A model generated the notes under the pieces. The model saw nothing but the letters and a program-made list of their open reading frames with translations, was not told the origin of the DNA and did not search any database. From Halomicrobium urmianum (GTDB taxonomy: Archaea > Halobacteriota > Halobacteria > Halobacteriales > Haloarculaceae): a stretch of DNA of 64,000 bases. This document shows, in pieces, positions 15,665-50,264 of the stretch. The stretch lies in assembly GCF_020217425.1 (NCBI RefSeq), contig NZ_CP084090.1, positions 558,001 to 622,000 of the forward strand. The letters are read 5' to 3'. The translations under genes and the position numbers were made by a program. Each line of letters opens with the position of its first letter. Within the stretch, counting starts at the first letter, position 1.

Positions 15665-15739
15665 TGGGTTCGGGCGGATTTGAACCGCCGGCCTCCTCCA
15701 TGTCAAGGAGGTGTCATAACCAACCTAGACCACGAACCC
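15665..15739 (-). tRNA. tRNA-Val (GAC anticodon)
   Basis: On the minus strand the molecule starts GGGTTCG and ends CGAACCC plus A, forming a 7-bp acceptor stem. The anticodon arm CCTCC-TTGACAT-GGAGG exposes GAC, and the T arm has GGCGGTTCAAATCCGCC. No intron and no encoded CCA. The gene lies 40 bases beyond the HNH pseudogene. Confidence 0.93.
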
Positions 15740-27350: not shown

Positions 27351-27437
27351 CTATAGTAGAAATTGACACTATTCACACATCGAGGGGCGCTCCGGGTGCC
27401 CTTCGCGTGGGTCACAGCGTTCAATTTCTACTATAGT
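27351..27437. repeat. Palindromic element copy 1 (87 bp)
   Basis: Ends with CTATAGTAGAAATTGA and its inverse complement (16-bp terminal repeats). It lies in the leader between the TVP38 gene and the DUF5830-like gene. Compared with the other two copies it is in reverse orientation: its left arm (CACTATTCACACATCGAGGGG) corresponds to their right arm. No open reading frame and no clear target-site duplication. Confidence 0.75.
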
Positions 27438-29177: not shown

Positions 29178-29320
29178 GCCCGGGTGGCTTAGCTGGACAT
29201 AGCGCCGCACTCATAGGGTCGTCAGACCTGCGCGGCACCATCCGGCATGACCGGTGGGCGCTCGTCACGCCTGCGACCTGGGTCATGCGGAGATCGAGGG
29301 TTCGGAGCCCTCCCCGGGCA
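29178..29320 (+). tRNA. Elongator tRNA-Met (CAT) with intron
   Basis: Exon 1 (29178-29215) starts GCCCGGG and exon 2 (29285-29320) ends CCCGGGC plus A, a 7-bp acceptor stem. The anticodon stem CCGCA/TGCGG flanks the CTCATAA loop, giving CAT. A 69-base intron (29216-29284) interrupts the loop after position 37, the canonical archaeal splice position. Intron ends GGGTC and GACC can pair to form the bulge-helix-bulge for the splicing endonuclease. The T arm GAGGGTTCGGAGCCCTC is intact. Confidence 0.93.
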
Positions 29321-29474: not shown

Positions 29475-29560
29475 CTATAGTAGAAATTGAACGCACTGAC
29501 ACACTCGAGGGGGACCCGGGGTCCCCCTCGATGTGTAAGTAGTTTCAATTTCTACTATAG
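29475..29560. repeat. Palindromic element copy 2 (86 bp)
   Basis: Starts CTATAGTAGAAATTGAACGC and ends with the inverse of CTATAGTAGAAATTGAA, with an inner stem TCGAGGGGGAC paired to GTCCCCCTCGA. It lies between tRNA-Met and the sugar dehydrogenase gene and encodes nothing. Same orientation as copy 3, and the stem tip covaries with that copy. Confidence 0.8.
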
Positions 29561-29605: not shown

Positions 29606-31654
29606 TCAGTTCCCGTTCGACCCGTCGGTCTCGTTGTCGGCCTCTGTCGGCTCCGCGCCGGGTAGCGGGTCCGGAACCTGTGGCAGGTCCTCGCCCTCCT
29701 CCGGCGGAACAAGCTTGAAGAGGTATCCGGTCTCGCTGTCGGGGGCCCGGAGCAGCCGCCCCAGCTGGTTCGCGAGGACGAAGATCTCGCCCTCCTCGTT
29801 CTGACCGAACATCCGGACGAACTGGCTGAGCGTCCCCTCCTGTCCGTCCTGGACGATCAGCTCCTCCATCTCCCACAGCTCGTCCCGCGGCACGACGTCC
29901 TCGGTGGCGGTCGCGGTGTCGGTCGTGGCGTCCTCGCCACTAGGAGTAGCGGTGGCGTCCTCGTCGCTGCCCTCGGTAGCGGTCGGCGTTCCCCCGTCCG
30001 CGCCGTCGAACCCGTCCGGTGGCGTAGCGGCGAGGATCCGACCGAGCGGCTCGTTCCGGCTGGGGTCTTTCGTCCACTCGCCGAAGACGTACTTGCCCTC
30101 AAGCCCGTCGATCACGTCGTTCTCGTAGCGGTGGCCGCCGATGATCACGATGCCGACGTTCTGGCCCTGATAGGTATGGGGGTACTCGACGACGGGGTCG
30201 ATCAGTTCGCTCCCGTCGTAGGGCGCTTCGTCGGGTTCGGCGTCCGGGCAGTCCGTGATGGCGTCCGGATCGGCCGCGTTCTCGGTGCTGAAGCAGTGAG
30301 TGCCCTCCTTGACGTTCCAGCCGTAGTTGCCGCCCCGCTCGACGACGTCGGCCTCCTCGAAGAGGTTCTGGCCGGCGTCGGCGACGAAGCAGTTCCCCCG
30401 GCTGTCGAAGGAGATCCCGAACGGGTTGCGGAAGCCGTATGCGTAGATCTCGTCCAGCCCCTCGCTGTCGTCGCCGGCGAAGGGGTTGTCCTCCGGGATG
30501 CCGTAGGGCCGGTCCCCATCGCCGCCGTCGACGTCGATCCGGTGGACGTCGCCGAGCAGGTTCTCCGTGACGTCCTGACCGTTGCCGCCGGCGTTCTGGT
30601 CGTACCAGTCGTCGACGTGGCCGTACAGCTCGTCGTTCGCGCCGCCGCCGTCGCCCATGGGCACGTACAGGTAGCCGTCGGGTCCGAACGCCATCGGGCC
30701 GCTGTCGTGGTTGTACTGCGGTTTCTGGAACGAGAGCAGCACCTGCTCCGAGCCGGCGTCGACGTCGGTTCCGTCCTCGCCGACCTCGAACGAGGAGACG
30801 ACCTCGACGTGGGACCAGTCGTCGGGCGTGTCCTCGTTCGGGGGCCTGCTGTAGTGGAGGAAGAGGCGCTGGTCGTCGGGGAACTCCGGGTGTAACTCGA
30901 CGCCGAGCAGGCCGCGCTCGTCGTACTCGCTCTCGGGGTCACCGTACTGGCCGTTGTACGTTCCGAGTTCGACCATCCGGTCGGAGACGTTCAGCACCGG
31001 CTCGTCCGACAGGCCCTCGTCCGGGTCGACGGTCCACAGTTCGCCGGTCTGATCGGTGACGTAGTAGAAGTCGAGCTCGGGGTGGTCCTCGAAGTCGGTC
31101 GGGGCGGTCATCCCTTCCGCGACCACCTGGACGCCGACCTCCGTGCCCCGCTGGAAGAACCGGGCTGCCTGGGCGTCCCCGGCGGGCGTCGCGGTGCCGT
31201 CGCCGGTCCCGACCTCGACGTCGCCGCGCATGCTCACCGGGTGGACCTCGCAGAGGTACTCCGCCATCTCCTCGGTCGCGGTGAACGACACCGTCTGCGT
31301 CGCGCCCTGCTCCTCGATGATTTCGCTGCTGAGGAGCGTCTCCTCGTCCCCGTCGAGGACGGCGAAGTTGTGCGGCTGGCCGTCAACGTTCTCCCAGGTG
31401 ACCTCGTAGTCCCGGCCGGCCTGCAGGGTGAGCGTCGGATTGGGCCCCTCGCCGACGGGGTCGCCGGCGTCGTCGGGAACCGTCCAGCCGGAGGTGACGC
31501 CGCCGAGTCTGATCGCGATCGGCTCGTCCTGCTGGGCGAGCCCGACGCCGGCGAGGCCGACGCCGCCCGCGGCTGCGACGCCTTTCAGAACGCTTCGTCT
31601 CCGTACGCTGGCCGGATACGACTCCGAACCAGTCGAGTTGTCGTCTCCTGTCAT
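29606..31654 (-). CDS. Tat-exported cupredoxin-PQQ sugar dehydrogenase (GSDH-like) fusion
   Basis: A 682-residue exported protein. The Tat signal is around RRRSVLKGVAAAGG (residues 18-31). Residues about 45-150 are a cupredoxin domain with a type 1 copper site: His95 in PHNF, Cys135, His138 and Met142. It is followed by a six-bladed glucose/sorbosone dehydrogenase propeller (PMAFGPDGYLYVPMGDGGG, AYGFRNPFGISFD, VADAGQN and GGNYGWN). Within the propeller an insert rich in Thr, Asp and Ser (around residue 575-605) interrupts a blade. The copper domain could take electrons from PQQ-linked sugar oxidation. The ATG is at 31654; the enormous upstream extension of the frame is not real. Confidence 0.85.
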   Translation of the reverse strand: MTGDDNSTGSESYPASVRRRSVLKGVAAAGGVGLAGVGLAQQDEPIAIRLGGVTSGWTVPDDAGDPVGEGPNPTLTLQAGRDYEVTWENVDGQPHNFAVLDGDEETLLSSEIIEEQGATQTVSFTATEEMAEYLCEVHPVSMRGDVEVGTGDGTATPAGDAQAARFFQRGTEVGVQVVAEGMTAPTDFEDHPELDFYYVTDQTGELWTVDPDEGLSDEPVLNVSDRMVELGTYNGQYGDPESEYDERGLLGVELHPEFPDDQRLFLHYSRPPNEDTPDDWSHVEVVSSFEVGEDGTDVDAGSEQVLLSFQKPQYNHDSGPMAFGPDGYLYVPMGDGGGANDELYGHVDDWYDQNAGGNGQDVTENLLGDVHRIDVDGGDGDRPYGIPEDNPFAGDDSEGLDEIYAYGFRNPFGISFDSRGNCFVADAGQNLFEEADVVERGGNYGWNVKEGTHCFSTENAADPDAITDCPDAEPDEAPYDGSELIDPVVEYPHTYQGQNVGIVIIGGHRYENDVIDGLEGKYVFGEWTKDPSRNEPLGRILAATPPDGFDGADGGTPTATEGSDEDATATPSGEDATTDTATATEDVVPRDELWEMEELIVQDGQEGTLSQFVRMFGQNEEGEIFVLANQLGRLLRAPDSETGYLFKLVPPEEGEDLPQVPDPLPGAEPTEADNETDGSNGN

Positions 31655-49754: not shown

Positions 49755-50183
49755 ATGCCGGACGTCTCGAGGATCGATACGGTGGTGGTGACCGCCGAGG
49801 AGCTCGTCGCAGCGCTCGAAGCGCGCGAGCGGGACCGGGAACGAACCGCGCTCCGGGTGACGGCCCCGTTCAGCGGGCGGATGCGCGCGAGACTCCACGT
49901 GGAACAGGGCGACGAGGCGGGCGACGACTCGCAGGCGCTCCTCCGGCCGGACCGGCTCGTCGACGACGACTGCCCGTCACCGCCCCACCCGGACGACACG
50001 GCCGACGCCATCAGGGCGGATCCGGACGACGACTACTCCGTCGAGCGCCACCGGACTCGTCACCGCCAGGCGATGCACGAATGGCGCGAGCGGGTCGTCG
50101 ACCACGCCGTCGACCGCGTCCCCGTCGGCGACGACCACACGGCCAGTCTGGCACTCTTCGATGCCGACGGTCCGGATCTATAG
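49755..50183 (+). CDS. Conserved haloarchaeal acidic protein, stop codon supplied by palindromic element
   Basis: A 142-residue acidic protein of a haloarchaeal conserved family with no known function (MPDVSRIDTVVVTAEELVAA, then LRVTAPFSGRMRARLHVEQG, and YSVERHRTRHRQAMHEWRER). The final codons GAT CTA TAG are partly made of the first six bases (CTATAG) of palindromic element copy 3, so the element ends the gene. The predicted length may therefore be altered compared with relatives; the body looks intact. Confidence 0.7.
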   Translation: MPDVSRIDTVVVTAEELVAALEARERDRERTALRVTAPFSGRMRARLHVEQGDEAGDDSQALLRPDRLVDDDCPSPPHPDDTADAIRADPDDDYSVERHRTRHRQAMHEWRERVVDHAVDRVPVGDDHTASLALFDADGPDL

Positions 50184-50264
50184 TAGGAATTGAACGCAAT
50201 GACACACTCGAGGGGCACTCCGAGTGCCCCCTCGATGTGTGAATAGTTTCAATTACTACTATAG
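50178..50264. repeat. Palindromic element copy 3 (87 bp), overlapping a stop codon
   Basis: Left arm CTATAGTAGGAATTGAACGC; right arm ends in ACTACTATAG (inverse of CTATAGTAGT). Inner stem GGGGCACTC/GAGTGCCCC differs from copy 2 (GGGGGAC/GTCCCCC) in sequence but preserves pairing. Same orientation as copy 2. Confidence 0.8.

Follow-up and report, generated by a model that had tools for sequence, protein, structure and literature searches.

A haloarchaeal family of 86-nt hairpins, probably an IS630-dependent MITE with arm pairing retained where the element spreads

The hairpin at positions 29475-29560 of the window, by which we mean the whole 64,000-nt stretch of Halomicrobium urmianum DNA that was analysed (GC 68%), is a copy of a mobile family that more than one in three of the sampled haloarchaeal genomes contain. 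There is a high probability that this element is a haloarchaeal IS630-type MITE. Going further, we consider it probable that the element is non-autonomous and depends on an IS630 helper of the ISNamo16 type, that its pairing is kept in the lineages that spread, and, as the best explanation of the hairpin itself, that it is a recent copy with one compensated pair.

Results

Anatomy of the element
The hairpin is one of three copies of the element in the window (Table 1). From the outside inwards, the consensus of the copies in the own genome, CTATAGTAGAAATTGAACGCACTGACACACTCGAGGGGCACCCGGGGTGCCCCTCGATGTGTAAATAGTTTCAATTTCTACTATAG, has a terminal stem of 17 bp, an internal loop that is asymmetric (7x7), a helix of 5 bp, a bulged C and finally the apical stem. 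Chance folding is excluded by the fold energy, as a consensus copy of the family folds as single-stranded DNA at -33 kcal/mol, against -6.8 ± 2.0 kcal/mol for shuffled sequences.

A sequence-only reading of the window had noted that the stem tip is GGGGGAC paired with GTCCCCC in copy 2 and has other letters in copy 3, with pairing retained. The observation is real, and both changes are two-sided when measured against the family consensus of the tip, GGGGCAC/GTGCCCC. Copy 2, with the tip CTCGAGGGGGACCCGGGGTCCCCCTCGA (29504-29531 region), differs from this consensus by C39>G plus G49>C, and the resulting G-C pair is private to it (1 of 83 copies in which these positions are filled). Copy 3, with the tip CTCGAGGGGCACTCCGAGTGCCCCCTCGA, has T42-A46 at the edge of the loop, a T-A pair that is present in 2 of 84 copies (copy 3 itself, L052, and L056). 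Pairing was thus retained at 39-49 in copy 2 and at 42-46 in copy 3 despite the changed letters, but the tip of copy 3 is imperfectly paired, with one additional unpaired C in its 3' arm. Covariation between two copies is by itself no proof of selection.

Table 1. Positions of the element copies and of their parts within the window.
Feature	Position	Strand	Evidence
Copy 1, more decayed	27351..27436	-	covariance model R1, E=3.2e-14
Copy 2, 86-nt hairpin including flanking C/G and two TA copies	29475..29560	+	covariance model R1, E=6.4e-20, positions 1-86 of 86
Copy 3, 87 nt, with an additional C on the 3' side of the tip	50178..50264	+	covariance model R1, E=3.2e-18
Terminal stem, left arm CTATAGTAGAAATTGAA (made up of the target C, the TA and the terminal inverted repeat)	29475..29491	+	sequence; boundaries by flank profile and relatives' empty sites
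Terminal stem, right arm TTCAATTTCTACTATAG	29544..29560	+	sequence; flank profile and relatives' empty sites
TA, left copy of the putative C-TA-G target duplication	29476..29477	.	15 Halomicrobium empty-site alignments, net 4 bp each; 74% of the own copies are preceded by C
TA, right copy of the putative target duplication	29558..29559	.	relatives' empty sites; right G in 76% of own copies
Asymmetric internal loop, 5' side CGCACTG	29492..29498	+	opposite AAGTAGT at 29537-29543; mostly unpaired in family alignments
Bulged C, position 30	29504..29504	+	C in at least 90% of the aligned rows of each of A1, A3 and A4
G of compensated pair 39-49 (consensus C)	29513..29513	+	sequence and family alignment
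C of compensated pair 39-49 (consensus G)	29523..29523	+	sequence and family alignment

The outer arm AATTTCTAC of the three copies is reminiscent of the start of a Cas12a repeat, a likeness that we take to be probably coincidence. About 155 bases upstream of copy 2, at 29178-29320 (+), lies what we presume to be an intron-containing elongator tRNA-Met with the ends GCCCGGG and CCCGGGC; this putative tRNA was reported neither by ARAGORN nor by Rfam at the gathering score. A gathering-score Rfam scan of the whole window returned only a tRNA at 15665-15739, and nothing at the element. Copy 2 faces a minus-strand ORF with its end at 29606.

Distribution across haloarchaea
With the covariance model, the family was detected in 146 of the 392 genomes of the order, representing 38 of 95 genera. 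A half-element pattern matched in 114 of the 392 genomes, with control counts of 0 among the rows listed, and one genome (G357) held 129 such matches. Relatives, nearly all of them exactly 86 nt long, occur in Halomicrobium katesii, Natrinema versiforme, Salinadaptatus halalkaliphilus and two MAGs. The element is also found on plasmids (183 places in 52 records, including Haloarcula hispanica, Natronorubrum and Natrialba magadii), where 24 of the 27 annotated rows listed for these records lie outside annotated genes, in a gene table that is itself incomplete. Searches of IMG/VR contigs with the exact pattern and of phage records gave no match to the element. One genome (G109) has versions of 112 and 113 nt (L252 and L253), in which the apical stem is longer and the outer parts are unchanged.

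Insertion site
The boundaries of the element are sharp at CTATAG on both sides. Empty sites were sought by joining the 80-base flanks of 20 Halomicrobium copies without the CTATAG...CTATAG segment and comparing them with four genomes of the genus, which gave 15 alignments for 13 distinct copies. In all 15 the two flanks are separated by a net 4 bp, with two further flank bases unaligned in three of them, and the net gain per insertion is 82 bp. Among the 13 copies, the empty site is exactly CTAG in three (L157, L158 and L169), one change from CTAG in six (GTAG twice, CTGG twice, CGAG and CTAA), two changes away in three and three changes away in one. Every one of these sites comes from the related Halomicrobium type rather than the own type; judged from these related copies, the simplest reading is that 80 bp would have been inserted into C-TA-G, with duplication of the TA.

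Many orthologous empty sites (L197-L221) are off CTAG by one or two bases. Tenzen and Ohtsubo reportedly found in 1991 that IS630 prefers TA within CTAG. Transposition in the IS630 family is described as cut-and-paste with TA duplication (PMC2170065), and avoidance of CTAG has been reported in Haloquadratum (PMC3119063); the off-CTAG empty sites may reflect such avoidance in haloarchaea.

A candidate helper of the ISNamo16 type
A DDE_3 search led to a transposase in another genome (G008), inside a 1059-bp element whose ends, TATAGTATCCGTTAGAA and TTCTAACGTCTGCTATA, are preceded by C and followed by G, respectively. Both reading frames of this element match IS630 (NCBIfam NF033545) and the second carries DDE_3. 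Relatives of the transposase are found in 144 of the 392 genomes at E<=1e-6, and the one in Natrialba magadii is annotated as belonging to the ISNamo16 family. From 30 IS630-type loci we recovered 26 left and 27 right ends with the consensus TATAGTAGTCGTTAGAA; the element is exactly 1059 bp long in 22 of 26, and of the flanking bases the left one is C at 23 of 26 ends and the right one G at 19 of 27. These end counts include three loci (L290, L310 and L313), as well as tandem copies at L261, that have N junctions with repeated sequence, which we treated as assembly artefacts; no other result depends on them.

The MITE and the IS630-type elements have TATAGTAG ends and C/G flanks in common, with a partial match beyond: 13 of 17 end positions agree in the Halomicrobium type and 11 of 16 in the own type. 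Across the 392 genomes both occur together in 76, the MITE alone in 70, the IS alone in 68 and neither in 178, an odds ratio of 2.8 uncorrected for kinship, and this co-occurrence is only suggestive of mobilisation in trans. The 70 genomes with the MITE alone, out of 146, have no IS630 relative at E<=1e-6. In the H. urmianum genome, searches with DDE_3 and for relatives of this transposase found no IS630 transposase above threshold, and its copies may therefore be remnants of a past helper. In Halomicrobium katesii, the IS630 elements (L228, L232, L235 and L236) have different ends, TACAGTCGTGC, and were rejected as partners. At a locus where the right half of the element alone was matched (L115), no transposase was recognised among the ORFs listed. 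Among 24 TnpB loci, three had a fuzzy match to the element within ~1.5 kb, and the right-end hairpin was found at none.

Copies in the own genome and their decay
DNA and pattern searches together placed the element at 88 positions in the H. urmianum genome, a lower bound, as a first look had given 122-123 candidates; the pattern search alone had 229 matches on both strands, against 16 for the reversed-pattern control. For the counts below, 87 copies were aligned and one (L076) was left out. The left arm is under-sampled for changes in these counts, because copies were found mainly through a left-arm pattern with up to 3 mismatches.

In the 87 copies, 411 of 2843 pair cells in the stems differ from the consensus. 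A single side is changed in 355 of these, of which 257 are unpaired, and both sides in 56, of which 41 are paired and 15 are not. The sequence-only reading had named unpaired stem changes in further copies as evidence against selection on folding, and within this genome such changes are in the majority (272 of the 411 changed cells). In the covariation check that it had called for, run here over the 87 copies, the 41 two-sided paired cells exceed the 18.9 ± 3.6 of shuffled alignments, but 16 of the 41 are supplied by the pair 35-53, which looks like a subfamily marker. With the outermost five pairs omitted, broken and compensated cells number 168 and 35 overall, and 34 and 4 in the 35 copies with <=4 differences. 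One-sided transitions yield G.T in 79 cells and A.C in 90, that is, without any preference for G.U. Since most changes are unpaired, and G.T is about as frequent as A.C, as in neutral decay, resident copies look unconstrained; taken singly, they look neutral.

Two otherwise dissimilar copies of 65 nt (L027 and L081) both lack the same 21-nt apical hairpin, which points either to repeated deletion or to a shorter mobile form. In five of the 87 copies (L015, L054, L057, L063 and L069) the left terminus is joined to the same IS605-type right end (CCCGAGGCACTCGGCCTGCTC..CCTGTAG). This right-end sequence also occurs beside the Y1 transposase loci L126 and L127, where the element is absent.

Covariation between lineages
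Comparison of lineages gives a different picture from that of the resident copies. In a set of 35 sequences, the apical stem has 52 two-sided cells, against 10.9 ± 2.5 in shuffled alignments and 3-16 in slid controls, and the terminal stem has 30, against 7.1 ± 1.9; in 28 diverse sequences, the terminal stem and inner helix together have 38, against 9.8 ± 2.5 (the shuffles keep kinship in, and these comparisons are not probabilities). The apical stem is the cleaner test of folding, because the terminal stem consists of the transposon ends, where parallel change is expected even without folding, and it is in the apical stem that the covariation score is higher (0.440, shuffled 0.137) than in the terminal stem (0.170, shuffled 0.081). 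The lineage sets consist mostly of best matches of model R1 and of the pattern search and thus lean towards model-like copies; a subtype whose apical stem is shifted by one position (L244, for example) stands outside the 35.

The length, usually 86 nt, and the asymmetric internal loop are kept across genera, and other asymmetries persist as well: of the 35 sequences, 18 are mismatched (C.T) at 11-76 and 19 have G.T at 9-78. On the written strand, the lineage representatives have 57 G.U cells and 6 A.C cells, which hints that it is the written strand that folds; we give this little weight, because the sequences had been selected by a model of the written strand, which favours G.U. Overall, the data support the view that pairing is kept in propagating lineages and not in each resident copy. 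The earlier proposal of selection on folding accordingly finds partial support for lineages and genera, in which the arms change jointly far above the controls, the apical stem included, but not for the copies of the own genome, which decay.

Discussion

Several features place the element among MITEs of the IS630/Tc1-mariner superfamily. It is short (86 nt) and non-coding, it has terminal inverted repeats with 17-bp arms, and it shares TATAGTAG ends and C/G flanks, with partial likeness beyond, with an autonomous element of the IS630 family. The empty sites that indicate duplication of a TA target are those of the Halomicrobium subtype (net gain 82 bp at a 4-bp site in 15 of 15 alignments, exactly CTAG in 3 of 13 copies). 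The transposition setting that the sequence-only reading had offered as one of two possibilities gains support from the empty CTAG sites and from an IS630 relative whose ends are the same. With this in mind, one may envisage an ISNamo16-type IS630 transposase that would recognise the TATAGTAG ends in trans, excise the element and join it to the TA of CTAG, with the TA being duplicated. If propagation demanded that the pairing and the length of this near-full-length inverted repeat be kept, spreading lineages would carry compensated changes, and an inserted copy, being no longer maintained, would decay.

Cut-and-paste of double-stranded DNA by itself needs no 86-nt hairpin. One may therefore speculate, at a distinctly low probability, that the hairpin of the written strand, with its asymmetric loop and bulge, is itself recognised during transposition, either as an extruded or single-stranded DNA hairpin or as an RNA made from the element; the fold and not only the ends would then be selected, in what would amount to a class of archaeal MITEs.

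Paired changes may also arise without any selection on folding, if a mutation in one arm is transferred to the other by template switching (quasipalindrome correction), a process reported to maintain hairpins (PMC8794818). In favour of this, the double change of copy 2 is private, and reverse-complementing CACCCGGGGTG gives the common loop variant CACCCCGGGTG, though this is equally one substitution away. As a sole cause, template switching has to contend with the internal loop, the bulged C and the 11-76 and 9-78 mismatches, all of which persist across genera, and most changes within the genome remain unpaired; we regard it as a possible but rather unlikely account. The covariation of the terminal stem, for its part, might merely track a changed transposase binding site that is alike at both ends, with no folding involved. 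The terminal 17 bp are indeed inverted repeats that vary in parallel between subtypes, but the apical stem lies outside the ends and covaries more strongly, which makes this reading an unlikely one.

An RNA hairpin serving the host as a regulator, processing site or terminator, and selected as RNA, would fit a fold that is stable both as single-stranded DNA and as RNA, the excess of G.U over A.C in the lineage representatives, and the mostly extragenic position of the annotated plasmid rows listed, within the limits of that gene table. Against it stand the absence of any Rfam family above the gathering score at the element and the resident copies, with their mostly broken pairs and no G.U preference, and the lineage set behind the G.U excess was picked with a model biased towards it, so that we hold a host RNA to be improbable. 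We find it very improbable that the element is a PATE- or REP-like sequence moved as a single-stranded DNA hairpin by a Y1 (IS200/IS605) transposase. The own genome has five Y1 genes, the hairpin has a bulge and an IS605-type right end adjoins five of the copies. Against this reading, the element has terminal inverted repeats, its C-TA/TA-G target is symmetric with 82 bp gained on balance, and its ends match those of IS630 elements; with the settings used the ends of the element were found within 1.5 kb of none of the five Y1 loci. PATEs, moreover, are without terminal inverted repeats and have near-terminal palindromes related to IS605, whereas the element has terminal inverted repeats.

Two covarying tips have thus led to a large mobile family that targets CTAG, includes natural variants of the stem and has a transposase as its likely helper. 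This family allows a direct test of whether a MITE must fold or whether two good ends are enough.

Comparison with known systems

The closest analogue of the element is RUP of pneumococcus, to which we liken it without implying a relation in sequence. RUP is described as 107 bp long and present in 108 copies, with a TA target and the ends of IS630-Spn1, by which it is mobilised (PMC2229807). Both are thus of ~100 bp and ~100 copies, have terminal inverted repeats shared with the IS630 family and a TA target, and are mostly intergenic. The present element differs in being archaeal and 86 nt long, in its near-full-length inverted repeat with conserved internal asymmetry, in its CTAG context and in its spread over many genera. 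Correia/NEMIS elements, compared here by description, are likewise short MITEs with TA ends and a long stem-loop, but they are bacterial and longer (~107 and 155 bp; PMC2229807). The ISNamo16-type IS elements share the TATAGTAG ends and the C/G flanks, and differ in being autonomous, ~1059 bp long and equipped with a two-frame transposase; their ends diverge after ~8 bp and form no long hairpin.

For haloarchaea, we found no paper on the family or its sequence beyond PMC3119063, and an ISfinder entry is possible. That paper concerns the small mobile repeats (SMRs) of Haloquadratum walsbyi, of which SMR-A and SMR-B resemble the element in being haloarchaeal, 80-110 bp long and of high copy number, with inverted terminal repeats and no transposase. 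SMRs are described there as ~110 bp long, with one family of 80 bp, as having repeats, no target duplication and an enigmatic mobilisation, and as targeting IS605/PATE palindromes while showing no relation to known transposons (PMC3119063). Judged by the description of SMR-A, the length and the repeats are similar, and the element has in addition a TA duplication and IS630-like ends; the present family also includes a version of 112-113 nt. The Haloquadratum SMRs may be of the same kind as the element, because a TA duplication is easily missed if the CTATAG ends are counted as part of the element. An explanation for the SMRs suggests itself, provided that a TA duplication within CTATAG was scored there as none, and a class of fold-selected MITEs, if it exists, could account for the mobilisation that PMC3119063 calls enigmatic.
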